The translations under genes and the position numbers were made by a program. 42,397 nucleotides of DNA from an uncultured Lachnospiraceae bacterium (GTDB lineage: Bacteria; Bacillota; Clostridia; Lachnospirales; Lachnospiraceae): the NCBI GenBank assembly GCA_902781655.1, contig CACZJZ010000024.1:2030-44426 (forward strand), written 5' to 3'. The notes under the pieces were generated by a model, which was not told where the DNA came from, made no database searches, and saw only the letters and a program-made list of their open reading frames with translations. Position 1 is the first letter of the stretch. Each line of letters opens with the position of its first letter. Positions 1 to 26,462 of the stretch are shown here, in pieces.

Positions 1-1890
1 TGCCGGAATCGTACCGGTTTCCATGACATAGCCGCACTCGGTGCATTCCTTATGCTTCGTACCGGTTGTGGTAGACGTTGCTGCGGTGTCGGTGATCCAG
101 TCGCCGGCGGTATGTGCTGCTTCCTTGGACTTTACGCCGCAGGCACATTCAAGCCAGTGCTTATCAGCACCGGACTTCCACTCGCTGCCATAGCTGTGGG
201 TATGATCGCTGCCGGTCGCAGGGATCGTATCGGTTTCCAGTACGCGCTCGCAGACGGTGCATTCCTTATGCTTCGTACCGTCAGTGGCAGCCGTTGCAGC
301 GGTGTCGATGATCCAGTCGCTGGCGGTATGAGCGGCCTTAGTGTTCCCGAGAATCGCCCTGCAGCCATTCACTTTGCATACTTTCCAATGGTTAGATGTA
401 TCAGACTTCCACTCGCTGCCTGCAACATGGGTATGTATCTCACCGATATGTTTATTGGACCAGTGATCTTCCCATTCGTCGCTCATCACACAGCAGCCAT
501 GGTCACAGCCTGCCGCAACGCTGTTTGCTTCACAGCAATCCTCGCACAAACCGCAGAATTCGCAGATCGTACCGCATTCGGAGCAGGCCTGACAGCACTC
601 CATACAAATAGCCGCGCAGTTTTCGCAGGTGTCGCAGCTTTCACACAGGGTAGCGCAGTCGGCGCAATATTCCTGACAATTCTGGCACAGGGTCGTGCAG
701 TCACCGCAACGCCCGCAGTCATGGCACAGCGCGGTGCAGTCTTTACAGGTGCCGCAATCGGGGCAGAGCACGCCGCATTCACTGCAGTGGGCGCCGCAGC
801 TTTCGCAGACGGTCACGCAATCTCTGCAGTATTCTTCGCACCCACCGCACAGCGTTACACAGTTTTCACAATAACCGCAATCCTGACACAGCTTGGCGCA
901 GTTTGCACAGGTGCCGCAATCGGGGCAGACGGTACCGCACTCACTGCAGGCACTGCCGCAGATGGGGCAGATCTCAGCGCAGGATGCACAGTAATAGCAG
1001 GTCTTGCAGAAACTCTCCGCCTGCTCCAGACATTCCTCACATCCGGGGCAGTGCTTGTTCTGATCGAGGGCGCATTCAACGCACATTTCACATTCATCGC
1101 ACCATTTGTCCGCGCACTCACCGCAGCGTCCGCAGCCGCCGGGACAGGGCTCATAATCCACAAAGCAGTTGCCGCATTCAACGCAGTGACAGCCGTTGTC
1201 TTTGGCACAGTCGATGCACATTTTGCAGTCTGCGCAGATATCACTGCCTGCACAGTCGGCACACAGTAGGCATTCCTGGCAGTAGACGGAATCATCGTTT
1301 ACATAGCAGGCGCCGCATCCCTCGCAGGCTGCACTGTTTTCTAAATGGCAGCTCAGGCAGAGATCGTCACAGCCTGCGTCGCACATGCCGCCGCAGTCAA
1401 AGCAGCGGTAGCAAACCAGGCAGCCAGCACTTGCGGTACATTTGTGGCAGTCCGGACAATGCTTATTGGCGTCTATGCCGCAATCAACGCACATTTCGCA
1501 TTCGTCACACCAATCAGAGGCGCAATCGCTGCAGGTCTCGTTACAACGCGGACAAGGGGTCACGTCGTCAAAGCAGGCGCCGCAGTTGGAACAGTGGCGT
1601 CCTTCATTTTGGGCACATTCAATGTGCATATGGCAGTCGCCGCACCAATCGTCGTCGCGGCAATCACCACAGACCTGGCAGTGGTTTTCATCGTAACAGT
1701 CGGTGTGGCCGCTGCTCTCACTGCAGTGATTGCCGCCGTCGCAGATCCAGTCATCAGCGATAAATTCATGGCAAAAATCGCACTCTGACTCCGTATCCCA
1801 TGCATAGGCATGCGTGGGAAGCATTCCTACAAGCATGATGCAGCACAGCAGCACGCTCAGCAGCTTATGCAGTCTTATTCTTGCTTTCAT
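1..1890 (-). CDS. Secreted cysteine-ladder protein (3' end outside window)
   Basis: The minus frame is open from ATG at 1890 to the window edge (630 codons, no stop) with an AAGGAGG site 8 bases upstream. Residues 1-30 form a signal peptide: basic start, hydrophobic core, then HAYA before Trp31. Residues 37-468 hold about 112 cysteines, roughly every fourth residue, spaced C-x2-C and C-x3-C. An early segment is duplicated: WCDECEMC with downstream NKHCPxC occurs near residues 127 and 263. After residue 470 the cysteines thin out and a 77-residue repeat begins (GSEWKS at 491 and 568; AAHTA-DWI-DTAAT; GTKHKEC; TIPATG), a type common in surface proteins of gut Firmicutes. The protein is therefore probably exported and cell-surface or extracellular. 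Function is unknown: disulfide ladder or metal binding are possible. A C-terminal anchor would lie outside the window. Reading frame and export signal are seen directly; the role is not. Confidence 0.85.
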   Translation of the reverse strand, partial: MKARIRLHKLLSVLLCCIMLVGMLPTHAYAWDTESECDFCHEFIADDWICDGGNHCSESSGHTDCYDENHCQVCGDCRDDDWCGDCHMHIECAQNEGRHCSNCGACFDDVTPCPRCNETCSDCASDWCDECEMCVDCGIDANKHCPDCHKCTASAGCLVCYRCFDCGGMCDAGCDDLCLSCHLENSAACEGCGACYVNDDSVYCQECLLCADCAGSDICADCKMCIDCAKDNGCHCVECGNCFVDYEPCPGGCGRCGECADKWCDECEMCVECALDQNKHCPGCEECLEQAESFCKTCYYCASCAEICPICGSACSECGTVCPDCGTCANCAKLCQDCGYCENCVTLCGGCEEYCRDCVTVCESCGAHCSECGVLCPDCGTCKDCTALCHDCGRCGDCTTLCQNCQEYCADCATLCESCDTCENCAAICMECCQACSECGTICEFCGLCEDCCEANSVAAGCDHGCCVMSDEWEDHWSNKHIGEIHTHVAGSEWKSDTSNHWKVCKVNGCRAILGNTKAAHTASDWIIDTAATAATDGTKHKECTVCERVLETDTIPATGSDHTHSYGSEWKSGADKHWLECACGVKSKEAAHTAGDWITDTAATSTTTGTKHKECTECGYVMETGTIPA

Positions 1891-2034
1891 AAGCAATTCC
1901 TCCTTGTTTCTTTTCGGTATTTCGCCGGGTGATCTGAGCGTGTGAGTTGATTTATCGGCTCTCCCACACGGCAAAGAGAGCGTCCGCCATTGCCTATCCG
2001 TTCGGAGAACGAAGAAGCGTCAAATACATTCATA

Positions 2035-2690: not shown

Positions 2691-2765
2691 TACTACATGG
2701 GGTGACCGATGGGGCACTTTCGGAGACTGTCAGATGTCGGAAATTTCAAAGGGAAGGAAACCGCA

Positions 2766-4058
2766 ATGCGTTCTTATTATCAGTTTATTGAAATAACGGA
2801 TTTTGGTCCGTATGTGACAAAACTCATTCTGGCATTCCCAGATCTGGTGAAGGCAGGGGAGATCTGCACAGACCAGTTCTGCGTCTATACACGGATTCTG
2901 GACAGGGAAGGAAACCAGATCAAAATGCCGGAGAATTTCATCAGACGGGACAAGTTCGTGCCGGCGGAGGGGTATCGTGTGATCGGGGATGCGTATCCGT
3001 CTGACGCGGCGGGAAACCGGGCGGCGGAAGGGAGGTTTGTCACGCTGGAGATGAAGTACGGGCCGCTCTATCCGTGCTCCTCCGCTCTGGCGGTGGATTT
3101 TACCAACATAAACGGGCATGAGTCGTATGTGGACAGTGTCAATGTCATCACACAGACGAAGGAGATCAAGACGGCGCAGGGAACGGTACGCGGTCTGGTG
3201 TTCGATCACTGCGCACGCGTGATGAATCCGGCGGTGGACCGGTGGCTGGAGGATGTCTCGGGCGACGCGGAGATGCCGCTCCGGTATGGCTACTTTGTTC
3301 CGCAGCGCGGCATGGACAAGCGGCCGCTGATCGTGTGGCTGCACGGCGCAGGAGAGGGCGGGACGGATACGGCCATCAGCTACTCCGGGAATAAGGCGAC
3401 GGCGCTCACGGACGACGCGATTCAGAGCAGGTTTGACGGGTGCTATGTGTTCTCGCCCCAGTGCCCGACGATGTGGCTGGACGATGGAAGCGGCCAGTAC
3501 GGGACAAGCGGGCGGTCGATCTACACGAGGGCTTTGAAGGCGGCGATCGATGAGTTCATCGCCCGGAATTCTTACGGCATCGACCCTGACCGTGTCTATA
3601 TCGGCGGAGACTCAAACGGCGGATTCATGACGATGCGGATGATCGCGGACTACCCGGATTTCTTCGCGGCGGCGTTTCCGATCTGCGAGGCTCTGTACGA
3701 TGCGTCGATCACGGATGAGGAAATAGGACGGATCGCCCGGACGCCGATCTGGTTCACGCATTCCAAGGACGATCCGGTTGTGGATCCGGAGAAATATGCG
3801 GTGGCGACGTATCGGCGCCTGCTGGCGGCCGGAGCGGAGAATGTACACTTTACATACTGGGACGGCATTTATGACATGCATGGTCAGTTCCAGGATGCGG
3901 AGGGCAAGCCATTTCACTACATGGGACATTTTGCGTGGATCCCGGTGTTCAATGAGGACTGCAGAACGGATTTTGACGGCAGGCCGGTCGTTGTGGACGG
4001 GCGGGAAACGGGCCTGTTTGAGTGGCTCGCGATGCAGAGAAGGGTGTCGCAGGGGTAG
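2766..4058 (+). CDS. Ig-like/alpha-beta hydrolase esterase
   Basis: 430 residues from ATG 2766, chosen because GGGAAGGA lies just upstream; a start at 2709 would add 19 residues without a good site. The protein has an N-terminal beta-rich part (about 1-160, beginning MRSYYQFIEI) like the Ig-like domain of Thermotoga-type esterases, then an alpha/beta hydrolase with oxyanion region LIVWLHGAGEGG (about 186-197), nucleophile elbow GGDSNGG (Ser283), probable acid Asp335 in KDDPVVDP, and His372 in YDMHG. There is no signal peptide, so it is probably cytoplasmic. It precedes a GH35-type glycosidase by 40 bases, suggesting it removes ester groups (for example acetyl) from an oligosaccharide that the glycosidase then cuts. 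Fold and triad are clear; the substrate is inferred from context. Confidence 0.8.
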   Translation: MRSYYQFIEITDFGPYVTKLILAFPDLVKAGEICTDQFCVYTRILDREGNQIKMPENFIRRDKFVPAEGYRVIGDAYPSDAAGNRAAEGRFVTLEMKYGPLYPCSSALAVDFTNINGHESYVDSVNVITQTKEIKTAQGTVRGLVFDHCARVMNPAVDRWLEDVSGDAEMPLRYGYFVPQRGMDKRPLIVWLHGAGEGGTDTAISYSGNKATALTDDAIQSRFDGCYVFSPQCPTMWLDDGSGQYGTSGRSIYTRALKAAIDEFIARNSYGIDPDRVYIGGDSNGGFMTMRMIADYPDFFAAAFPICEALYDASITDEEIGRIARTPIWFTHSKDDPVVDPEKYAVATYRRLLAAGAENVHFTYWDGIYDMHGQFQDAEGKPFHYMGHFAWIPVFNEDCRTDFDGRPVVVDGRETGLFEWLAMQRRVSQG

Positions 4059-4098
4059 TGGCACGGGAATAGATAAGAATGGGAGGATAGAACGTTTT

Positions 4099-5760
4099 AT
4101 GAGTAAGCACAATATACCGCATATCAGTCAGATCAACGGCCAGCCTGTTCTGATGGTCGGGGACAGGCCTTTTATCCTCCTGGCGGGCGAGGTGCATAAT
4201 TCCGATTCTTCTTCGCCTGCCTACATGGAGAAGATCTGGGCTATCGCCGATGAGCTCGGGATGAACACGCTGCTGCTCCCGGTCACATGGGAAATGATCG
4301 AGCCGGAGGAGGGGCACTTTGATTTCTCTGTGCCTAAGGCCCTGATTGATCAGGCAAGGGAACGGGACATGCATATCGTGTTTCTCTGGTTCGGAAGCTG
4401 GAAGAACGCGGAGTGCATGTATGCACCGGCCTATGTCAAAACAGATCTTGTGCGGTTTCCCCGCGCACAGATTGAAAAAGGGAAGAATAAGGCGGGGCGG
4501 GAGATTTCGCCCTCGATCCCGGTCAAGGCGCCTTATACCACGCTCTCCTATCTGGGAGAGGAGACGATGAAGGCAGATGCCCGCGCTTTCGCGGCATGGA
4601 TGGGGTTCCTCAGGGACTACGACGGAGAACGGCAGACGGTGGCTGCGGTGCAGGTGGAGAATGAGACCGGCCTGCTCGGCGCAGCGCGGGAGGTCTCCGA
4701 TGCTGCCGATGCGCTTTTTTCTGCGGAGGTTCCTGCAGATTTTGCCGCCTATATGCGCAGCCACACCGGGACGATGACGGAGGAGATCCGGAGCGCGGTA
4801 GTGCATGGGCGGGAGAATGGAAGCTGGACAGAGGTTTTCGGCGGCGCGGCGGAAGAAATTTTCTCCGCGTATCATGTGGCACGTTTTGTCAACACAGTGG
4901 CCGAGGCAGGAAAAGCGGTTTATCCCCTGCCGATGACGGTCAACTGCTGGCTGGACAAGGGCGGCGCGCCGGGAAGCTATCCCACAGGAGGGCCGGTCTC
5001 CAGAATGCACGAGGTCTGGGATTTCTGCGCACCGTCTATCGACGCCTACTGCCCTGACATTTACGTGCCGCAGTTCAAGGAAGTATGCGACGAATACACA
5101 CGGCGCGGCGGGGCGCTCTTTATTCCGGAGTGTGCGACCCACAGCTACTGCGCGCCGCGGCTGGTTTATACCGTCGGGCACTATCACGCGATGTGCTATT
5201 CTCCTTTCGGCTTTGATGATATTGGCAAGCCCTTTACAGCTGTGCAGGGATTTCTGTTCGGAATGGATGTGAACGATCCTGCGCTCAGGACGCCGCAGAG
5301 CTTTGAGGAATATTCCGCTTTTGGCAAAATTCTGCGGGAGATGATGCCCATGCTGGCGGAAGCGTACGGCTCTGACCGGTTGCAGGCGGTCTCGGCTGAG
5401 ACAGACCCGGCGATTCCGGATCCCTCCGGCAATCCCTTCCTCGCGAAACAGCCCGCAATGGACTTCGGTGCGTTTACGGTGACAGTCGGTTTCCAGAGTC
5501 AGATCAACCCGCGCGGAGACGGCGTCTGCCTGTGCCTTGCGGTCAGCGATCATGAGTGCTGGATCGTGGGAAACGCCTGCGATATCAGGCTCAATTCCGG
5601 AAATAAGGAGCAGCCGAATCTTGACCTCCTCCTGCTGGAGGAAGGCCGCTTTGAAAACAGCCGGTGGATTCCCGGCCGCCGTCTGAACGGAGATGAAAGC
5701 GCGCGGCTCAGTATGGATAAGCCGTCTGTGTGGCACCTGAAATTCTTCACCTATCAATGA
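4099..5760 (+). CDS. GH35-type beta-galactosidase-like glycosidase
   Basis: 553 residues starting MSKHNIPHIS at ATG 4099, with GGGAGG 12 bases upstream; the open frame extends further 5' only through the overlapping esterase. A TIM barrel opens with FILLAGEVHNSDSS and NTLLLPVTWEMIEPEEG, typical of GH35/GH42-like enzymes. The acid/base is probably Glu189 in QVENETG and the nucleophile Glu344 in LFIPECATH. The C-terminal part (about 400-553) is a beta domain resembling DUF5597 found in such enzymes. No export signal is present, so it should act on imported oligosaccharides. It is probably co-transcribed with the esterase. Retaining beta-galactosidase activity is the family default; the actual sugar is not readable from sequence. 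Confidence 0.8.
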   Translation: MSKHNIPHISQINGQPVLMVGDRPFILLAGEVHNSDSSSPAYMEKIWAIADELGMNTLLLPVTWEMIEPEEGHFDFSVPKALIDQARERDMHIVFLWFGSWKNAECMYAPAYVKTDLVRFPRAQIEKGKNKAGREISPSIPVKAPYTTLSYLGEETMKADARAFAAWMGFLRDYDGERQTVAAVQVENETGLLGAAREVSDAADALFSAEVPADFAAYMRSHTGTMTEEIRSAVVHGRENGSWTEVFGGAAEEIFSAYHVARFVNTVAEAGKAVYPLPMTVNCWLDKGGAPGSYPTGGPVSRMHEVWDFCAPSIDAYCPDIYVPQFKEVCDEYTRRGGALFIPECATHSYCAPRLVYTVGHYHAMCYSPFGFDDIGKPFTAVQGFLFGMDVNDPALRTPQSFEEYSAFGKILREMMPMLAEAYGSDRLQAVSAETDPAIPDPSGNPFLAKQPAMDFGAFTVTVGFQSQINPRGDGVCLCLAVSDHECWIVGNACDIRLNSGNKEQPNLDLLLLEEGRFENSRWIPGRRLNGDESARLSMDKPSVWHLKFFTYQ

Positions 5761-5843
5761 TACTTTCCCTGCAAAGAGCAGGATGATCCCTTGGGAATGA
5801 GCCTCAACTTGTTCCCGGGGGATATTTCTGAAAGGTGTTCCCC

Positions 5844-7478
5844 ATGACGAAACAAAATCGCCAGACTAGCCTTCTTGTGGCCGCGATGATTATCTGTGCC
5901 ATTCTTCTGCGTGTCATGGCAAAGTCTGATCTATGGAGCGTTCCGGGGGGAATTGCCCGCGCGATAATCTATATCGCCCTTTATATCGGATGGGGAATAT
6001 CCGTAAGTAACCGGATCATTCAGGTGCAGGTGCGCCATTATCTGATTGCCATTTCCGGACTGATGGTTTTCTGGTTTGTCTTCCGTACAACGAAATATCA
6101 TTTTACAGCCGATGTGGCAATAAGACGGCAGCTATGGTACTGGTATTATCTGCCAATGCTGCTTATCCCGCTGTTTTCTTTGTTTGTATCCGTCTCACTG
6201 GGCAAGTCCGCGAATGCCAGATTGCCAAAATCGACGCAGGTGCTTTATATTCCCACGGTTCTCTGTCTGCTGCTGGTGCTGACAAATGATTTCCATCAGC
6301 TTGTCTTTTCCTTTCCGGAAGGAGAGATATGGACGGATGCTAATTCGGAGTATGAAGCAGGATATTATTTTGTCATCGGCTGGGAAATTATCTGTGCTTT
6401 CACGTCATTTATCATCATGCTCATCAAGTGCCGGCTCTCGCAAAGGAAAAAATATCTGCCTGTTCTGCTGTTAACATGCTCCGTCGGATATGCCCTGATC
6501 TATGCCAGCGGCGTGGAGTGGATGCAGCTGATCGGTGGAGATGTCACGGCGGCGCAGTGTCTGATGTTCACCGGAATTCTGGAGTGCTGTATTCAGTGCG
6601 GACTGATCCAGACCAATACTGGTTATCAATCGCTGTTTGAAGACGGCTCCATCGGAGCGCAGATCGCAGATGCGGACTGTCATATCCGTTATACCTCTTC
6701 CAGTGCACCGAAGCTGACGGAGGGAATGATACGTTCAGCAACGAGAGGCACGGTCATGCTGGACCGCAACACTTTGCTCAGAAGCAGCAGGATTGATGGC
6801 GGTTATGTTTTATGGCAGGAGGATATTTCAGACATCACTGCTCTGCTGGAAAAGCTGGAGGAAAACAGGAAAACCATTTCGGAAAGCAATGCGGTAGAGC
6901 AGGAAAACTATAAAACCAGGGTAAAGATCAACGCAGTGCGGGAAAAGAACAGACTATATGACCGGCTGCAGGCACAAACCGCACATCAAATCGAGCTGCT
7001 CGACCGGCTGCTGACGCAATACGAGACGGAATCCGATCCGGGAATCCGCCGCAGTCTGCTGGCAAAAGCAGCGGTGATCGGTGCATACATCAAACGCCGC
7101 GGAAATCTCATATTTATCGGTGAAAAATGTGATGTAACGGATACAGCCGAACTGTCCGCCTGTTTTGATGAGTCCTTTGCCAATTTAGAGCTGATGGGGG
7201 TGGAGTGTGCCTTCGATATTCCGGGCAAAATCAGCATCGATATCCGGGACGCGATCCGGGTATATGACTTTTTTGAAGCCGTGACGGAGACTGCGATAGA
7301 TGACATACGTTATGTCTGGCTGAAAGCCCGCAGCCTTGAAAGTGCCGTCCTCTTCTATCTGCAGGCAGAATGCGAAACCGAATTGTCGGCGCTTTCCGGG
7401 CTTGCCGACACCTGCGCCCATGAGGAAGGCGTATGGAGCTTTTCCCTGCGCATCGGAAAGGCGGGAGGACAGACATGA
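5844..7478 (+). CDS. Degenerate 7TM sensor (histidine-kinase-like, no clear ATPase motifs)
   Basis: 544 residues from ATG 5844, with AAAGGTG six bases upstream (GTG 5835 is an alternative). Residues about 8-235 contain seven hydrophobic helices in the style of the histidine-kinase N-terminal 7TM domain. A short PAS-like stretch (about 245-320) and a helical, coiled-coil-like segment (about 320-400, with REKNRLYDRLQAQTAHQIEL) follow. The C-terminal third has the position of a kinase core, but I see no conserved phosphorylation-site block, N box or glycine-rich ATP lid. It overlaps the next gene by ATGA. Inference: a membrane sensing subunit that works with, and perhaps heterodimerises with, the catalytic kinase downstream. 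Confidence 0.65.
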   Translation: MTKQNRQTSLLVAAMIICAILLRVMAKSDLWSVPGGIARAIIYIALYIGWGISVSNRIIQVQVRHYLIAISGLMVFWFVFRTTKYHFTADVAIRRQLWYWYYLPMLLIPLFSLFVSVSLGKSANARLPKSTQVLYIPTVLCLLLVLTNDFHQLVFSFPEGEIWTDANSEYEAGYYFVIGWEIICAFTSFIIMLIKCRLSQRKKYLPVLLLTCSVGYALIYASGVEWMQLIGGDVTAAQCLMFTGILECCIQCGLIQTNTGYQSLFEDGSIGAQIADADCHIRYTSSSAPKLTEGMIRSATRGTVMLDRNTLLRSSRIDGGYVLWQEDISDITALLEKLEENRKTISESNAVEQENYKTRVKINAVREKNRLYDRLQAQTAHQIELLDRLLTQYETESDPGIRRSLLAKAAVIGAYIKRRGNLIFIGEKCDVTDTAELSACFDESFANLELMGVECAFDIPGKISIDIRDAIRVYDFFEAVTETAIDDIRYVWLKARSLESAVLFYLQAECETELSALSGLADTCAHEEGVWSFSLRIGKAGGQT

Positions 7479-8803
7479 AGAGCTTATATCCTTCTACTGC
7501 TTCGGCACAAGCGACATTTTTTGTCCCTAACAAGTTTAGCTTGTTTGGGACAATTCTGCTGACCGCGCTGTTCCTTTCCCTGATTTTGTCGCTTTTTCTG
7601 CTGCTTGCGTCGTATGGCAGACAGCGCAGCAAATGGAAAGGATATCTGCATTTATCGGTATTTCTGTTCCTGTTTATCTTATTATCCGTGCTGGCGGAAG
7701 CGTTTTCAAAGATGGAAGAAGGGCTGGAGTACAAGGCATGGCTGCCTCTTCCTGTGTGGCTGCTCTGGAGCATAGTGTTTGCAGCAGATTTTCTGACGAT
7801 ATGGGAGTTTGCAGAGCTGCGGAGGATGGAAAAAAAGACGCTCAGCCGCGATTCCATCAAGCAGGCGCTGGATATGCTGCCAGGCGGAATATGCTATTTC
7901 ACACCGTCCGGGAGCGTCAAGCTGTGCAACAGGCAGATGGATGCTTTATTCCATACCATTTCACGGAGCGATCTCCAAACGCTTGCCGAGCTGCAGGATG
8001 CGCTGTCAGACTGCGATGCAGGCGGCGGAGTGACCAGGCTCTCCAAGGAGAGGCAGACCTATCTTTTCCCTGACGGCAAGGTATGGCGCTACCGGCAGAA
8101 CGAGATGAAAACGGCGGACGGCACGCTGTATACGGAAGCCATCTTTTCGGACGTCACGGAGCTGTACCATAAAAATCTCGAGCTGAAGGAGCAGATCAGG
8201 CGGCTGAATGCCATTTCCCGCGAATTAAAATGGCTTTCCGACAATGCGCTGATTCTGGCAAGAGAAAAGGAAGTGCTGTCCGCCAGGACGAAGCTGCATG
8301 ACGATATGGGAGCGGGACTGATCGCTATCCGGCATATTCTCGATCACAGTGGGACGGAGAAAACAGAAAATGCAATGAATCTGTTCCGCCAGGCCGTCAG
8401 CGCCATCAAATACGACAATGCCTGTCCGCAGGGGCGCAGCGAGCTGGACGAATTCCTGCATGATGCCGGGACAATCGGGATAACGGTAAATTTGTCCGGA
8501 GACCTGCCTGAGCAGGAGGAGCTGCGGCGGGTTGTGATTCTTGCCATGCGGGAATGTCTGACAAACAGTGTGCGTCATGCCGGAGCAACGTCCTTATACA
8601 TCACGGCAGAGAAAAAGAGAGACTGCTTTTCCGTGAGAATTACAAACGACGGGAGGCCGCCCGATACCGAGGTCGTTCCCAGAGGCGGGCTTCGCAACCT
8701 GTACCGTCATGTTCTGGACCTCGGCGGTACAATGGAAATACAGTCAAGGCCGGACTTTGCGTTAACGGTGCATCTCCCGGTGACAGGGGAGGAAATGGAA
8801 TGA
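7475..8803 (+). CDS. Membrane sensor histidine kinase (HATPase type)
   Basis: 442 residues from ATG 7475, with GGGAGGA seven bases upstream and ATGA overlap with the preceding sensor gene. Three membrane helices lie at about 27-45, 58-74 and 92-110. A PAS-like domain spans about 125-235 (GGICYFTPSGSVKLCNRQ). The phosphoacceptor is His275 in KLHDDMG, a HisKA_3-like site, and the ATPase N box is MRECLTNSVRH with Asn364. The G-rich lid is short (PRGGLRNLYRHV). It should phosphorylate the NarL-type regulator whose ATG overlaps its stop. Residues 16-27 (FVPNKFSLFGTI) are encoded by a 33-bp palindromic repeat unit (7521-7553) found in intergenic copies elsewhere in the window, so the N-terminus has probably been altered by an in-frame insertion. 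Confidence 0.82.
   Translation: MKSLYPSTASAQATFFVPNKFSLFGTILLTALFLSLILSLFLLLASYGRQRSKWKGYLHLSVFLFLFILLSVLAEAFSKMEEGLEYKAWLPLPVWLLWSIVFAADFLTIWEFAELRRMEKKTLSRDSIKQALDMLPGGICYFTPSGSVKLCNRQMDALFHTISRSDLQTLAELQDALSDCDAGGGVTRLSKERQTYLFPDGKVWRYRQNEMKTADGTLYTEAIFSDVTELYHKNLELKEQIRRLNAISRELKWLSDNALILAREKEVLSARTKLHDDMGAGLIAIRHILDHSGTEKTENAMNLFRQAVSAIKYDNACPQGRSELDEFLHDAGTIGITVNLSGDLPEQEELRRVVILAMRECLTNSVRHAGATSLYITAEKKRDCFSVRITNDGRPPDTEVVPRGGLRNLYRHVLDLGGTMEIQSRPDFALTVHLPVTGEEME
7521..7553 (+). repeat. 33-bp palindromic unit, copy 1, inside a coding region
   Basis: A single hairpin unit: outer arms TTGTCCC/GGGACAA, a T:T mismatch, inner arms AACAAG/CTTGTT and loop TTTAG. It is the most symmetric copy. 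It is read in frame as residues 16-27 of the kinase with no stop. Related units occur at 19116, 20991 and 26405. Confidence 0.9.
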
Positions 8804-9453
8804 AACGGGTTCTTATTGTGGAGGATCAGCGGATGCCCCGCGAAAACATGGAGCGGATGCTTTCCGACAGCGGCAGATACGAGCTTGCCGCCAGTCTGAG
8901 CGGAGCGGACATTGCCTTTGTGAAATGCTGCCAGCTGCACATTGATCTGATTTTGATGGATGTCTGCACTTCGGGCAGTAAAGATGGGATTGAAGCTGCC
9001 GCAGAAATCAAGGCGAAGTTTCCGGATATCAAGATCATCATTGTCACATCGATGGTTGAGGTGAGCTACCTGGAGCGCGCCAGAGCAGCCGGGGTTGACA
9101 GCTTCTGGTATAAGGATATCAGCCCGGAAGCGCTGATTGATGTGATCGACCGGACCATGGCGGGTGAGCATCTTTTTCCGAACGAGACGCCGAGGGTGAA
9201 ACTTGGACTGGCCGATAGTACGGAGCTGACGGCAAAGGAGATCGAGGTGCTGCGGCTGATCTGCGACGGATTGGAATATGATGAAATCGCCGACAGGCTG
9301 GATATTTCGGAAAGAACCGTCAAATACCATGTTTCCAACATTCTGTCAAAAACAGGATATGCCAACAGAACCCGGCTTGCGATTGCAGTGACAAACAAGA
9401 AATTTATCGTTCCGAATCTCCCCGAAGAACGGGAGTTTTTCAAAACCGAATAA
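8800..9453 (+). CDS. NarL/LuxR-type response regulator
   Basis: 217 residues from ATG 8800, overlapping the kinase stop (GAATGA), with GGGGAGG about 10 bases upstream. The receiver domain (1-120) has the acidic pocket Glu8/Asp9, phosphoacceptor Asp54 in LILMDV, Thr83 and Lys105. The output domain (about 143-205) is a LuxR-type helix-turn-helix: ELTAKEIEVLRLICDGLEYD followed by EIADRLDISERTVKYHVSNI. It is the cognate partner of the kinase upstream. Likely targets are nearby: the small peptide at 9673, the GH31 gene at 9986, or its own operon. No operator is proven. A hairpin terminator follows at 9505. Confidence 0.9.
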   Translation: MKRVLIVEDQRMPRENMERMLSDSGRYELAASLSGADIAFVKCCQLHIDLILMDVCTSGSKDGIEAAAEIKAKFPDIKIIIVTSMVEVSYLERARAAGVDSFWYKDISPEALIDVIDRTMAGEHLFPNETPRVKLGLADSTELTAKEIEVLRLICDGLEYDEIADRLDISERTVKYHVSNILSKTGYANRTRLAIAVTNKKFIVPNLPEEREFFKTE

Positions 9454-9455
9454 CC

Positions 9456-9505
9456 GAGACCTGGGCAGTCAATATAACCGAGCAGCTGAGACCTGATCAG
9501 TCAAT
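9456..9505. repeat. Imperfect 18-bp direct repeat after the regulator gene
   Basis: GAGACCTGGGCAGTCAAT (9456-9473) and GAGACCTGATCAGTCAAT (9488-9505) differ at two positions and lie 32 bases apart; TAACCGAG precedes both (9451, 9474). They fill the gap between the regulator stop and its terminator. This could be a slippage duplication or a paired binding site. Confidence 0.6.
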
Positions 9506-9538
9506 CCCGGCCCTCTTTTGGGACCGGGAATTTTTTTT
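9505..9538 (+). terminator. Rho-independent terminator of the signalling operon
   Basis: The stem TCCCGGCCC / GGGACCGGGA, with one bulged base and a short CTTTT-type loop, is followed by AA and eight T. It lies 52 bases after the regulator stop codon. Confidence 0.85.
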
Positions 9539-9672
9539 GCAAAAAATACCCCAACCTGTACCCAGGGACAGGGCGCAATGGAAAGAAATCCATTACGTTA
9601 TTTATGGTATCAATCTGCGCCGCAGAATTTTGATTCTGAATCTCATCATCAGATTAGGGGGAGGAATGGCGT

Positions 9673-9771
9673 ATGAAAGCAAACACTATATTTGCAAGGC
9701 TGTGGATTTATTTATTGTCCGCTCTGATGCTGCTCAGCGCGTTTATGATCATTGTCTATGCTGCGCCATAA
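9673..9771 (+). CDS. Small membrane or exported peptide (32 aa)
   Basis: The frame begins MKANTIFARLWIYLLSALML at ATG 9673 and ends VYAAP, after a strong GGGGGAGG site. One hydrophobic helix covers most of the peptide with a basic N-terminus, and VYAAP could be a cleavage region or simply the end. It sits alone between the terminator of the two-component operon and another terminator at 9881, so it appears to be its own transcript. Membrane-bound small peptides next to sensor/regulator systems are sometimes signals or modulators, but there is no cysteine or maturation gene here to support an autoinducer. I do not recognise a family. Confidence 0.5.
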   Translation: MKANTIFARLWIYLLSALMLLSAFMIIVYAAP

Positions 9772-9880
9772 CCGGTTTTTTCAAATTTATGAATGGAGGA
9801 AGAACGGTATCGGTATTTATGGCGGCGGAGAGATGATGTTTTGAAATAAAAGAGAATCATACAGCATGACGAAGAGGGAT

Positions 9881-9914
9881 GCGGTGTCGGTATGAATCCG
9901 GCACCGCATTTTTG
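9881..9914 (+). terminator. Rho-independent terminator after the small peptide
   Basis: A ten-base stem GCGGTGTCGG / CCGGCACCGC (one G-T pair) with loop TATGAAT is followed by ATTTTTG. It closes the small-peptide transcript before the GH31 promoter. Confidence 0.8.
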
Positions 9915-9922
9915 CCATTTCA

Positions 9923-9951
9923 TTGGTTTATTGCTGTGTCGATGATATGAT
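9923..9951 (+). promoter_or_regulatory. Promoter of the GH31 gene
   Basis: TTGGTT (9923-9928) and TATGAT (9946-9951) are 17 bases apart, and TG-A directly precedes the -10, making it an extended -10. The gene starts 35 bases downstream. Confidence 0.5.
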
Positions 9952-9985
9952 GGATGGAGCAAGAGCGCGGCACGGAGGAATAAAA

Positions 9986-12493
9986 ATGAATCAACTGATT
10001 TCGAACCCGGATGCGGTGGTAAAGGGAGATCATTACCGGATCACGGTTCTCACGCCGGAGCTTTTCCGGCTGGAGTATTCGGAGCACGGAAATTTTGACG
10101 ATGAAATGACGCAGATCGTAGTGAACCGGCAGTTTCCGGTTCCGTCGTTTTCTCTGAAGGAAACGGAAGATGAGATTCAGATCATTACGGAGAAGGCGGA
10201 GCTTCATTATAACCGTCGTCCGTTCGAAAAGTGCGGACTCTGGATTCGGATCCGCGGAAACGGCGCGAACGCCACCTGGCATTTCGGCGATGATGCCGAC
10301 AATCTGCTCGGAACGGCGCGCACACTGGATACGGCCGATGGAGACGATCTTCTTGACGGCGGAAAGCTGCCGATGGAAAAGGGACTTTTCTCATTCCGGA
10401 GCGGCTTTTCCGTGATCGACGACAGTCATTCGGTGCTGGTGCATGAGGACAGGACGGTCTCGCCCAGAACGGCGGGGAATACTGATCTGTATTTCTTCGG
10501 CTATGGGCACAATTACCGCAAGGGACTCGCAGATTACTATCATCTGACGGGACATCAGCCGCTGATTCCAAGATTTGCACTCGGAAACTGGTGGAGCCGG
10601 TATCACAAGTACACGGAGCAGGAGTATAAAGACCTGATTCAGCATTTTGAGACTGACAGGGTTCCGCTGTCCGTCGCGGTTATTGACATGGACTGGCATC
10701 TCGTCGATATTGACCCGAAATACGGCAGCGGCTGGACCGGCTACACCTGGAACAAGGATTTCTTCCCGGACTACAGGGAATTTCTTTCCTGGCTTCATGC
10801 GCACGGCCTGAAGACGGCGCTCAATGTTCATCCGGCGGACGGGGTGCGCGGCCACGAGGCGATGTACCGGGAGATGGCGGAGGCGCTAGGGCGTGATGCG
10901 GACGCGGAGGAGCCGATTCCCTTCGACATCGCGGATCCGGCATATGTAGAGGCGGCTTTCCGTTACATCTACCATCCGTATGAAGAGGATGGCGTCGATT
11001 TCTGGTGGCTTGACTGGCAGCAGGGCGGCGTCACGAAGGTGCCGGGCCTTGATCCGCTGTGGATGCTCAATTATTACCACTATGAGGACAGCAAGCGCGA
11101 TGGAAAACGTGGCCTGACGTTTTCGCGGTACGCAGGGCCCGGCAGCCACCGGTATCCGATCGGCTTCTCCGGCGATACCATCGTCACATGGAAATCACTC
11201 GCTATGCAGCCGTGGTTCACGGCGACCGCGTCCAACATCGGCTACGGCTGGTGGAGCCATGACATCGGCGGCCACATGTTGGGCTACAAGGATGAAGAAC
11301 TCACGACGCGCTGGGTGCAGTTCGGAGTCTTCTCGCCGATCATGCGCCTGCATACCTCGGACAGCGAGTATATGCACAAGGAGCCATGGTTGTTCAATGC
11401 GGTCTCAAGGGAGATCATCGAGCGGTACCTGCGGCTCCGCCACGAGCTGATCCCTTACCTCTACACGATGAATCTGCGTGCTCACAGGGAGGATTGTCCG
11501 CTCGTCGAGCCGCTTTACTACCGCGATCCGGAGAATGGCAGCCTGTATATGACATGCCGGAACGAGTATTATTTTGGCACGGAGCTTGTCGTAAGCCCGA
11601 TCACCGCGCCGCGCCAGAAGTCCGGCTTCGCCGGCGTCAAAACCTGGATTCCAGCGGGCGGCTGGTATGATATTTTCACCGGGCTTCACTACACCGGCGC
11701 CAAAATGCTGACGCTGTACCGCGATCTCTCGGATATTCCGGTGCTTGCAAAGGAGGGGGCAATTCTGCCGATGGAGGATTTCTCGGGCGACGGGTACTAT
11801 ACTGCGTCGACGGAGAATCCGGAGCATATGACGCTGAAGATCTTCTGCGGTCAGGACGGTGCGTTTTCGCTCATGGAGGACAATGGCACTGGCTCGGAGT
11901 ACGAAGAGGAGAACTGGTGCGAGACAAGGATCAGTTACTGCGAGCGAAGTGCGGGCACGGCCGGGGACCGGGCGCAGGGAAAGACCAGTCCGGACGGTTC
12001 ACCTGCGGGTGCCGGAGAGAACGCGGTTCGGAGCACAGAAATAAGCGAAATGCCTGAAAGAAAGCTGACCATCGCGCCGGCAGCCGGAAATACTTCCTGC
12101 ATTCCGAAGAAGCGCACCTGGAGGGTTGAGTTCTATGGTATATATTGGAATGGGAACGAAACGGGCCCCAGGGTTACCGTGAATGGGTCGGAGGTTACGA
12201 CAGAGTATGACGACGCAAGGAATGTGCTCTCTGTATGCGTCGGCCCCACTGATACAGACGCGCGGATCGAGATTGAGGTGCAGGGAGCGGCAGGGCGTCC
12301 GGCAGACGGAGACTTCCGCAGGAGACTAAACGAGATTCTCATGAAGGCGGAGATGGAGAATATTCCCAAGATGCAGTTCGGCGCCATGCTCGCCGGCGGC
12401 GCGGGAAAGAACGAGATTCTCTCCTCCGCACTTGCCTCTGACATGCCCTGTGAGGTCATCGGGGCCTTCTCGGAAATACTGCTGGCGGAATGA
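9986..12493 (+). CDS. GH31 family alpha-glycosidase
   Basis: 835 residues starting MNQLISNPDA at ATG 9986, with CGGAGGA seven bases upstream. The N-terminal beta domain (about 1-200) is followed by a TIM barrel (about 205-550): LSVAVIDMDWHLVD, then FWWLDWQQGG with probable nucleophile Asp343, and GFSGDT with probable acid/base Asp397. WGL-type C-terminal beta domains follow. Between about residues 650 and 700 sits a hydrophilic Gly/Ala/Ser-rich insertion (SAGTAGDRAQGKTSPDG) that looks like a linker. The WWLDWQQG form of the active site differs from that of classical maltase-type GH31 enzymes, so alpha-glucosidase, alpha-xylosidase or another alpha-glycosidase activity are all possible. No signal peptide, so cytoplasmic. 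A decayed transporter tail follows. Confidence 0.85.
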   Translation: MNQLISNPDAVVKGDHYRITVLTPELFRLEYSEHGNFDDEMTQIVVNRQFPVPSFSLKETEDEIQIITEKAELHYNRRPFEKCGLWIRIRGNGANATWHFGDDADNLLGTARTLDTADGDDLLDGGKLPMEKGLFSFRSGFSVIDDSHSVLVHEDRTVSPRTAGNTDLYFFGYGHNYRKGLADYYHLTGHQPLIPRFALGNWWSRYHKYTEQEYKDLIQHFETDRVPLSVAVIDMDWHLVDIDPKYGSGWTGYTWNKDFFPDYREFLSWLHAHGLKTALNVHPADGVRGHEAMYREMAEALGRDADAEEPIPFDIADPAYVEAAFRYIYHPYEEDGVDFWWLDWQQGGVTKVPGLDPLWMLNYYHYEDSKRDGKRGLTFSRYAGPGSHRYPIGFSGDTIVTWKSLAMQPWFTATASNIGYGWWSHDIGGHMLGYKDEELTTRWVQFGVFSPIMRLHTSDSEYMHKEPWLFNAVSREIIERYLRLRHELIPYLYTMNLRAHREDCPLVEPLYYRDPENGSLYMTCRNEYYFGTELVVSPITAPRQKSGFAGVKTWIPAGGWYDIFTGLHYTGAKMLTLYRDLSDIPVLAKEGAILPMEDFSGDGYYTASTENPEHMTLKIFCGQDGAFSLMEDNGTGSEYEEENWCETRISYCERSAGTAGDRAQGKTSPDGSPAGAGENAVRSTEISEMPERKLTIAPAAGNTSCIPKKRTWRVEFYGIYWNGNETGPRVTVNGSEVTTEYDDARNVLSVCVGPTDTDARIEIEVQGAAGRPADGDFRRRLNEILMKAEMENIPKMQFGAMLAGGAGKNEILSSALASDMPCEVIGAFSEILLAE

Positions 12494-19115: not shown

Positions 19116-19184
19116 TTGTCCCTAACGAGTTTAGCTTGATTGGGACAAAAATTGTCCCAATCAAGCTAAACTCGTTAGGGACAA
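19116..19184. repeat. Palindromic repeat, copy 2 (two inverted 33-bp units)
   Basis: Unit A (19116-19148) and unit B (19152-19184) are exact reverse complements separated by AAA, so the whole can fold into one 33-bp perfect hairpin or two small ones. Each unit has ends TTGTCCC/GGGACAA and core TTTAG or CTAAA. It lies 5 bases after the oleate hydratase stop and 160 bases before the transposase remnant. Confidence 0.95.
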
Positions 19185-19498: not shown

Positions 19499-21000
19499 GC
19501 GCGAATCGATTATTGTGTGATCTGCGGGAGGGGAAGGCTCTTTCTTTCCGTCAGCAGCTTCTGATGATTGTTCAATTGAGTATACCGGCGATTCTTTCGC
19601 AGATTTCCACGGTGCTGATGGAGTATATTGATGCATCGATGGTGGGAACGCTGGGCGCGGATGCCTCGGCTTCCATCGGGCTGGTCGCCTCGACGACCTG
19701 GCTGGTCGGGAATTTGTGCGGGTCTGCTGCGGTTGGCTTCACAGTGCAGGTTTCGCAGTATTATGGAGCGCGTCGGGAGGCGAAGGCGCGGAGTGTTTTC
19801 CGTCAGGGTGTTGTGTGTGTGGCGGCACTTGCTGTGCTGCTGGGGTTGATCGGCATGGCGATTCATCGCAGTCTTCCGGTGTGGCTCGGCGGAACGCCAG
19901 AGATTCTCTCCGGTGCGTCATCTTATTTTCTGATCTATTCGGCGGCGGTGCCGATTGCGGCGCTTCTGAATCTGAGCTGCGGGGCGCTGCAATGTTCCGG
20001 CAATATGTCGGTGCCGGGCATGATTCTTGTCCTGATGTGCGGAATGGATGTCGGCTACAACTATCTCTGCATTTTTCCGGCGCGCCGGCTGCATGGCTTC
20101 TATATGCCGGGGCTGGGGCTCGGCGTCACGGGCGCAGCGCTTGGAACGCTGTTTGCTGAAGCTACGGCAGCTGCGATTTGTCTGATCTATATTTTGCTGC
20201 ATTCGGAGCTTCTGATTTCCCATTATTATCGCGATGCATCGGTGCGTCAAAATCCGTCCTGTCCTGAGAAGGAGGCTCTTCTCCGTGAGGAAGCGACGGG
20301 TAAGGATCAACCGTCCGGTGCCAGCACTGATTTTGACGGGAAGGCGGAGCCGTTCTTCCACCTGCACGATATTCAGATTGCCGTGAGGATTGCTCTTCCT
20401 GTCGCGCTGCAGTCGGTGGTGCAGAACGGCGCACAGATTATCTCGACGCGGATCGTCTCTCCGCTGGGAACGACGGCGATCGCGGCCAATTCTCTTTCCG
20501 TCACGGCGGAGAGTCTCTGCTATATGCCGGGATATGGCATCGGGTCCGCCGCCACCACCCTGATCGGGCAGTCGGTCGGCGCCGGCAGAAAGGATCTGGT
20601 GAAGCGGCTCGGCTGGCTCACTACGCTGTTTGGCATGGTGATCATGGCGGTGAGCGGCGCGTTCATGTATCTGTGCGCGCCGGGGATGATCGGAATTTTG
20701 ACGCCGGATCCTGCCGTGCGGAGCCTTGGTGCGGCTGTCCTGCGCATCGAGGCATTCGCCGAGCCGATGTTCGGTGCTTCCATCGTGGCGAACGGTGTGT
20801 TCCGCGGTGCGGGGGACACGCTCATTCCGTCCTGTATGAGCCTTGTCAGCATGTGGGCAGTCCGACTCCCGCTTGCCGCCTTCCTTGCACCGCGCATTGG
20901 GCTGCGCGGTGTCTGGACTGCGATGGCGATTGAACTTACCTTCCGCGGCATCCTCTACCTCGCGCGTCTCGCCGGGCGGCGCTGGACACATTGTCCCTAA
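19495..21000 (+). CDS. MATE family multidrug/cation exporter
   Basis: 501 residues from ATG 19495 (MSANRLLCDL). GGAGGAGGG lies about 20 bases upstream, farther than usual, because the transposase remnant sits directly in front. Twelve hydrophobic helices are seen with MATE features: QLSIPAILSQIS near the start, TVQVSQYYGARREAKAR in the first half, and GIGSAATTLIGQSVGAGRKD in the second. The loop joining the halves (about 240-290) is long and hydrophilic. It should export toxic cations or metabolites with Na+ or H+ import. The stop TAA (20998-21000) lies inside the first unit of palindromic repeat copy 3, so the last three residues (HCP) and the stop come from the repeat. Confidence 0.88.
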   Translation: MSANRLLCDLREGKALSFRQQLLMIVQLSIPAILSQISTVLMEYIDASMVGTLGADASASIGLVASTTWLVGNLCGSAAVGFTVQVSQYYGARREAKARSVFRQGVVCVAALAVLLGLIGMAIHRSLPVWLGGTPEILSGASSYFLIYSAAVPIAALLNLSCGALQCSGNMSVPGMILVLMCGMDVGYNYLCIFPARRLHGFYMPGLGLGVTGAALGTLFAEATAAAICLIYILLHSELLISHYYRDASVRQNPSCPEKEALLREEATGKDQPSGASTDFDGKAEPFFHLHDIQIAVRIALPVALQSVVQNGAQIISTRIVSPLGTTAIAANSLSVTAESLCYMPGYGIGSAATTLIGQSVGAGRKDLVKRLGWLTTLFGMVIMAVSGAFMYLCAPGMIGILTPDPAVRSLGAAVLRIEAFAEPMFGASIVANGVFRGAGDTLIPSCMSLVSMWAVRLPLAAFLAPRIGLRGVWTAMAIELTFRGILYLARLAGRRWTHCP

Positions 21001-21059
21001 GGAGTTTAGCTTGTTTGGGACAATTTTTGTCCCGAACAAGCTAAACTCCTTAGGGACAA
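20991..21059. repeat. Palindromic repeat, copy 3 (supplies a stop codon)
   Basis: Unit A (20991-21023) and inverted unit B (21027-21059) are separated by TTT and differ from exact complementarity at one base. TAA at 20998-21000 is the MATE stop codon. TATGCT (21060-21065) and TATGAT (21065-21070), candidate -10 boxes for the next gene, begin exactly at the right end. Confidence 0.95.
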
Positions 21060-26404: not shown

Positions 26405-26462
26405 TTGTCCCTAACGAGTTTAGCAATTTTTGTCCCAAACAGGCTAAACTTGTCAGGGACAA
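26405..26462. repeat. Palindromic repeat, copy 4 (internally deleted)
   Basis: Unit A keeps only its first 20 bases (26405-26424), unit B is complete (26430-26462) but more diverged (AGGCTAAACTTGTCAGGGAC). The junction AATTT shows loss of the GGGACAA end of unit A. It lies 12 bases after the stop of the 100-residue protein and just before a promoter for the glycan operon. Confidence 0.9.

Follow-up and report, generated by a model that had tools for sequence, protein, structure and literature searches.

In this study, we have analyzed a 42,397-nucleotide stretch of DNA from an uncultured Lachnospiraceae bacterium (assembly GCA_902781655.1, contig CACZJZ010000024.1; hereafter the window), at one end of which a minus-strand gene encodes a protein with a leader followed directly by a ladder of 112 cysteines, spaced mostly as CxxC. 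The ladder was found in seven further proteins of gut and rumen Clostridia, one near-identical and six distant, the latter from five other genera and four families within one class. On balance, we lean towards a Sec-exported surface protein whose outer tip is clamped by metal, most likely zinc, in place of disulfides.

The cysteine ladder and its gene

The reading frame is open for 630 codons without a stop, from an ATG at position 1890 to the window edge (window 1-1890, minus strand). Its features are the following, with residue numbers counted from that ATG.

1899..1904, minus: Shine-Dalgarno sequence AGGAGG, 8 bases before the ATG at 1890, read from the sequence
1801..1890, minus: signal peptide, residues 1-30 (MKARIRLHKLL...THAYA), recognized by eye from its basic start, hydrophobic core and AYA-W
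490..1782, minus: cysteine ladder, residues 37-467, 112 cysteines, defined by sequence and homologues
973..1782, minus: long-unit section, residues 37-306, an N-cap and then long units
1453..1665, minus: 136-offset duplication, copy 1, residues 76-146, by self-comparison
1045..1257, minus: 136-offset duplication, copy 2, residues 212-282, by self-comparison
973..1104, minus: 44-residue module, residues 263-306, two knuckle-plus-helix halves in an AlphaFold model
523..972, minus: section of 13/14-residue units with four cysteines each, residues 307-456, containing the 54-residue super-repeat
799..960, minus: 54-residue super-repeat, copy 1, residues 311-364, by self-comparison
637..798, minus: 54-residue super-repeat, copy 2, residues 365-418, by self-comparison
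448..510, minus: C-cap GCDHGCCVMSDEWEDHWSNKH, residues 461-481, with a counterpart in homologue L198 (GCDCDDPVCINSDGWQDHFNEKH)
1..435, minus: 77-residue His/Cys repeats, residue 486 on, continuing past the window edge and matching PDB chain 9qa6

The initial annotation had described about 112 cysteines in some 430 residues behind a leader, with C-x2-C and C-x3-C as the dominant spacings, and both points stand: we counted 112 in residues 37-468, and the 111 spacings comprise 66 of x2, 21 of x3 and 24 others. At least 112 cysteines in 432 residues would arise with a binomial probability of ~1e-95, on a base of 1.67% cysteine in the 22 other long open reading frames (ORFs) of the window, a mechanical list in which some are surely not genes. 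The internal duplication with a 136-residue offset and a common WCDECEMC, already seen in that annotation, is the top self-match (76-146 versus 212-282), with 15 cysteine positions in common and 4 not. The second-best self-match has an offset of 54 residues (311-365 versus 365-419); cysteine occupies 16 of 16 positions in both copies of this super-repeat, with 19 amino-acid differences elsewhere.

Two kinds of unit build the ladder. In residues 37-306, an N-cap (EC[DE]FC...DDWxCD...HCSE) is followed by the order CxxCxxCxxC - x7 - HCxxCxxC - x5-8 - CxxCxxCxxC, making long units of ~44 residues with the three motifs CxxCxxCxxC, HCxxCxxC and CxxCxxCxxC; the second kind is the 13/14-residue unit with four cysteines.

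The ladder is not an artefact. A chance frame was rejected in view of the homologues, the ribosome-binding site and the cysteines preserved in diverged internal copies, and the same observations, together with the leader, settle that the frame is real and uninterrupted within the window. Extending the contig, as had been recommended, recovered the open end: in the assembly (G000:C24; genome 99.5% complete, 53 contigs) the gene comprises 779 codons, its last part reading VPQTV, then a hydrophobic segment, then KRKKYVK; this putative anchor was judged by eye and is reached across a scaffold gap. This gap of 37 N (locus L003, 1993-2029, upstream of window position 1; read as 13 X) lies inside the 77-residue repeats, and the repeat number of the full protein is therefore uncertain. 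A promoter and terminator scan around the gene stayed near chance level.

Relatives of the ladder

That no known family came to mind at first remains true of the ladder, which has no match in Pfam, NCBIfam or PHROGs (PADLOC was outside the scan), but not of the 77-residue repeats, which are homologous to those of the Thomasclavelia ramosa immunoglobulin A (IgA) protease. Even with E allowed up to 10, the window protein hits nothing in Pfam. The literature, judged partly from titles and the beginnings of abstracts, yielded no bacterial cysteine-rich CxxC surface family, and the ladder family is apparently undescribed in the libraries and literature searched. The impression of a singleton is corrected by the six distant homologues.

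In a scan of genome contigs, 16 loci were retrieved, and the ladder occurs in a single one, L004 (uncultured Lachnospiraceae RUG554), where the contig end cuts it; the matches of the remaining 15 are confined to the C-terminal repeats, from window residue 484 onwards. The ladder gene is alone in its own genome, and among 99 chosen relative genomes three gave matches: its own, G006, whose locus L021 contains the L004 coding sequence, and one with a zinc-ribbon protein. With the window domain alone as query and the own genome included, some match came from 11 of the 392 genomes searched in the order at E up to 0.001; at E up to 0.01, the family gave 43 of 397 and the phylum 20 of 398. The weak matches were rejected as members, the inspected loci being mostly zinc ribbons or ferredoxins and some cysteine-poor or out of frame; in the family search, 31 of 46 match rows were inspected and the 15 left out had E of 0.0057 or more. 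Genome G716 gave the sole new ladder among the loci inspected, and its genus (2/2 genomes) led to that of G1166. A three-sequence profile then picked out three of 397 family genomes (own, G716 and G690), one of the three genomes in the genus of G690, and four of 291 class genomes (own, G1382, G1386 and G1422). From these counts, the ladder family is rare and patchy, and its members come from at least four families within the class.

The members are listed below, with ladder edges taken from a sliding window.

Window: 431 residues, 112 cysteines
L198 (G716): 278 residues, 64 cysteines; four fn3 stretches in the C-terminal part
L203 (G1166): 393 residues, 83 cysteines; sub-threshold fn3 match in the C-terminal part
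L208 (G690): 259 residues, 60 cysteines; no C-terminal match over the cut-off
L212 (G1422): 442 residues, 93 cysteines, start missing; sub-threshold dockerin match in the C-terminal part (18.7 bits versus a cut-off of 22.9)
L213 (G1382): 382 residues, 78 cysteines; InlB-type and CBM_X2 domains in the C-terminal part, NTPNTG-hydrophobic end
L214 (G1386): 482 residues, 119 cysteines; no C-terminal match over the cut-off
L004: 203 residues, 46 cysteines, cut inside the ladder at the contig edge

Cysteine makes up 20-26% of the ladders, acidic residues (D/E) far outnumber basic ones (K/R) in all members, and x2 accounts for 51-60% of the cysteine spacings across all eight. By eye, the leader stands directly before the ladder in 7/7 members with an available start. 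What unites the family is thus a ladder behind a leader, CxxC in more than half of the spacings, and a profile similarity that extends beyond the cysteine positions.

This last point carries the homology. Against the profile of the six homologues the window reaches 96.7 bits, and none of 300 shuffles with fixed cysteines exceeds 15.8, so the similarity within the family exceeds mere cysteine spacing; when L214 is left out of the profile, the values are 55.2 bits for the window versus -19.5 for the best shuffle. If the composition correction of HMMER is switched off, the window scores 461.3 versus 448.5 (453.3 versus 425.7 without L214), and the smaller margin means that much of the raw score is cysteine, as expected. 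In BLASTP, each of the six homologues matched the window above all 300 shuffles, narrowly for L208 (147 versus 140 bits). The features beyond CxxC are a His ahead of CxxCxxC and the two caps: the N-cap is found in the window and L203 and, in a looser form, in L214 and L213, and the C-cap residues W473, H476 and K480 (W-x2-H-x3-K) are invariant in the window, L203 and L198. The section of 13/14-residue units is present in the window and L214.

Since the C-terminal parts differ between members, the ladder has the appearance of a mobile module at the N-terminus. Our searches gave no sign that it came from a virus or plasmid: no relative was confirmed in viral contigs, phages gave none, and plasmids gave none for the domain of L203 and one 28.5% match, on a Streptomyces plasmid, for that of the window. 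The CxxC pattern at the DNA level occurs in at least 120 stretches of the viral contigs, mostly out-of-frame simple repeats among the 80 loci examined. Two viral contigs carry pure C-x2 ladders, L077 (513-581, minus; 87 cysteines in a 311-residue open frame) and L052 (9373-9441, plus; 30 cysteines in 173 residues), whose grammar, with a period of 3, differs from that of the window ladder.

Metal, disulfides or iron-sulfur clusters

Three options for the ladder had been left at the outset: a stacked disulfide solenoid, a metal-storing coat and a multi-cluster iron-sulfur (Fe-S) protein. We favor a metal-held ectodomain because no DsbA, DsbB or VKOR was found, His recurs beside the cysteines, repeats with predicted zinc sites lie in the same chain, and a knuckle-helix module is predicted; the disulfide solenoid is kept as a rival and the Fe-S option is disfavored. 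Paired CxxC knuckles are the usual grammar of structural Zn(Cys)4 sites. In the seven members compared, His occupies position -1 or -2 at 30 of 87 starts of CxxCxxC runs versus 39 of 481 other cysteines (Fisher p 1e-9, an optimistic value because the sequences are related). The AlphaFold model of the 44-residue module has a mean pLDDT (predicted local distance difference test) of 83.4. Foldseek gave no significant fold match to it; the 41 insignificant matches are, by title, mostly RING, LIM, PHD, FYVE or small-ribosomal-subunit entries, chains that we take to bind zinc. As modelled, the unit resembles treble-clef and cross-brace zinc domains (LIM, RING, FYVE) in its knuckle followed by a helix, and differs from them in being part of a dense exported tandem array. 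The clostridial zinc ribbon proteins, which make up most of the weak genome matches inspected, also have CxxCG knuckles, sometimes serial; their loops between CxxC pairs are longer, with at most ~10 cysteines per 60 residues in the loci inspected versus 16-19 in the window, L004 and L153.

The 77-residue repeats noted earlier behind the ladder do exist, starting at residues 486 and 563. Two stretches of the T. ramosa IgA protease (ThomasA or IgAse, Q9AES2, chain 9qa6), 909-980 and 1065-1131, are matched by residues 486-630 (E 3.7e-44), and in both of them every His and Cys of the window repeats lies opposite a His or Cys. With a numbering offset of ~30, these stretches would fall within ZBD1 and ZBD2, for which the sections consulted of the IgAse report predict zinc coordination by two His plus two Cys or, in one site, by three Cys and one His (PMC12237041). 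The same sections count 24 cysteines in IgAse and report no disulfides seen (PMC12237041), and a second report, in the parts drawn on here, describes the full ectodomain as elongated by small-angle X-ray scattering and ascribes its flexibility to the C-terminal part (PMC12402451). These excerpts give IgAse a signal peptide and a sortase-type end (PMC12237041, PMC12402451), both of which the window protein appears to share. The likeness is confined to the repeats: the ladder has no match to IgAse, and the window gene no Pfam peptidase match.

A disulfide-laddered rod, with cysteines oxidized outside the cell either spontaneously or by an unrecognized oxidase into a stacked solenoid, seems to us rather unlikely, but it has points in its favor. 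The protein is exported, its strong acidity fits neutral disulfides better than thiolate-metal sites, and 112 is an even number. Against this, the counts in other members include the odd numbers 83, 93 and 119 (with sliding-window edges, and L212 without its start), the recurrent His is left unexplained, and no disulfides were seen in the stalk-sharing IgAse, as mentioned above. In addition, a search of the window's genome alone with the models of DsbA (PF01323), DsbB (PF02600) and VKOR (PF07884), the SdbA/TlpA types being left out, gave no match, whereas control genomes were positive in 8/14, 6/14 and 3/14 cases, respectively; a Dsb-made disulfide-rich exported protein was rejected for this genome on the same grounds. 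In the portions of a survey used here, obligate anaerobes tend to keep cysteine out of exported proteins, and some Clostridia possess DsbA-like proteins or VKOR (PMC12453122).

The cysteine density, the acidity and the repeat expansion would also suit a metal store or scavenger. In this view the ladder would act outside the cell as a sponge of the metallothionein kind, buffering or hoarding Zn, Cu or Cd at the cell wall. We regard this as unlikely. The caps and non-cysteine positions are conserved and the unit lengths recur, which suggests a folded architecture rather than a flexible sponge, and no metal transporter or regulator was seen among the six nearest window ORFs and the DUF5640 gene scanned. 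Metallothionein itself was rejected as a candidate, the ladder being 431 residues long in an exported protein with no Pfam match.

An extracellular multi-cluster Fe-S protein appears very improbable. CxxCxxCxxxC does occur nine times in the window ladder and three to seven times in the other six longer members, and there are profile matches to polyferredoxin-like chains (E 0.0048 and 0.058). Ferredoxins need a Pro after this motif, and each protein has at most one such instance; with CxxCxxCxxxCP at 0-1 per ladder, ferredoxins and polyferredoxins were rejected. The leaders, moreover, look Sec-like by eye; none shows a clear twin-arginine motif, the RR pair of L198 standing in poor context.

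The metal-clamped tip that we prefer would work as follows. As we infer it, the gene would give rise to a Sec-exported cell-surface protein in which residues 37-467 form the N-terminal, outermost array of small knuckle-and-helix units. The CxxC pairs and the recurrent His would clamp a divalent metal, most likely Zn(II), and these clamps would render the tip stiff, acidic and resistant to proteases. Behind it, His/Cys repeats like those of the T. ramosa IgA protease would form a C-terminal stalk leading to a degenerate sortase-type anchor. The clamps would stand in for disulfides in an anaerobe without a recognizable Dsb pathway, and the tip would be exchangeable, with a role in adhesion or shielding.

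Variation at the locus and known counterparts

Two relatives of the locus bear on this exchange. In L005 (Eubacterium sp. S30_Bin6), flanking DNA, leader and anchor are 88-94% identical to those of the window and enclose a different ectodomain, which suggests tip exchange at one locus. The L005 gene (5706-9173) encodes a surface protein with an InlB/Flg_new-type ectodomain; its sortase-type motif reads VPQTG versus VPQTV in the window gene, where the hydrophobic segment and KRKKYVK are present. In L004, a relative of the same genus, the flanking DNA is ~2% different from the window, codons 1-182 differ at 0/546 nucleotides and codons 183-240 at 60/174; cysteine is preserved at 48 of 49 positions of the aligned part, one being lost. 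Together, these comparisons suggest that tips are exchanged at one locus and that ladder units may be reshuffled. They could also be taken to mean that the protein is foremost a variable surface antigen or adhesin, comparable to the variant-specific surface proteins (VSPs) of Giardia; recombination among its own repeats would then alter the tip that is exposed, whatever the chemistry. We think this quite improbable: there is a single relative of each kind, L004 breaks off within the ladder where its contig stops, so that its repeats may be misassembled, and no switching machinery was seen among the neighbors, the only place looked.

Near the L005 gene there is a sortase gene, and the similarity between the window's genome and L005 ends before it. 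A DUF5640 gene (PF18692) lies downstream of the ladder gene and overlaps a short ORF (L003, 680-1072 and 976-1428), which presumably resembles the C-terminal domain of MetG. From L003 position 1054 the DUF5640 gene no longer resembles its counterpart in L005, and the sortase gene of L005 is missing beyond, a break that suggests rearrangement or misassembly.

On the other side, the neighbors scanned (window 2709-12493) include an esterase with an EstA immunoglobulin-like domain, a GH35/DUF5597 protein, the N-terminal region of a seven-transmembrane (7TM) histidine kinase, an ORF with a sub-threshold HATPase match, a LuxR-type response regulator and a GH31 enzyme; no metal genes were found among them. 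A dispersed 33-nucleotide element with inverted ends, TTGTCCCTAACnAGTTTAGCTTGTTnGGGACAA, lies at 7521-7553, 19116-19184, 20991-21059 and 26430-26462; the two copies at 19116-19148/19152-19184 are oppositely oriented and form a perfect 33-nucleotide inverted repeat. The element may be of the REP (repetitive extragenic palindromic) or MITE (miniature inverted-repeat transposable element) type. Elsewhere, long frames of gut Clostridia that appear exported by eye (L007, 10107 on and 11094 on; L009, 6186 on; L018, 480 on) carry zinc-ribbon-like or DnaJ-like CxxC repeats, so Cys/His sites outside the cell may be widespread in such bacteria.

The closest analogy is with the Giardia VSPs (PF03302), likewise proteins of gut-dwelling cells with a CxxC-rich extracellular region, which reportedly bind zinc, according to the titles of cited work. 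The window protein resembles them in its exported CxxC-rich ectodomain, assuming a surface location, yet is not a member: it has no PF03302 match, a bacterial leader and anchor, a cysteine share of 20-26% and no detectable homology, and two further proteins, P0003 and P0004, gave no PF03302 match at E up to 1. In the part of the work drawn on here, the trypsin resistance of a VSP is lost with chelators or reductants and regained with metal (PMC6341118).

CxxC-rich metal-stabilized surface proteins are thus already known in Giardia (PMC6341118), and extracellular His/Cys zinc repeats have been proposed in IgAse. Tentatively, the ladder might define a hitherto undescribed class of exported bacterial domain, shared by several families of anaerobic gut Clostridia, in which each molecule has ~15-30 metal ions, one for every four cysteines, in place of disulfides in a rod-like, exchangeable and recombining outer tip; equally tentatively, and jointly with this idea, the class would be an independently evolved bacterial counterpart of the Giardia CxxC coat. 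To find 60-119 cysteines in one exported domain runs against the anaerobe trend to exclude cysteine, as described in the survey sections cited above (PMC12453122). If metal holds the ladder, stiff, protease-proof extracellular domains would be possible without a recognizable Dsb pathway, by means of a small module. If true, the Giardia surface coat would have a parallel in bacteria, which would bear on host contact in the gut and on metal at the cell surface.
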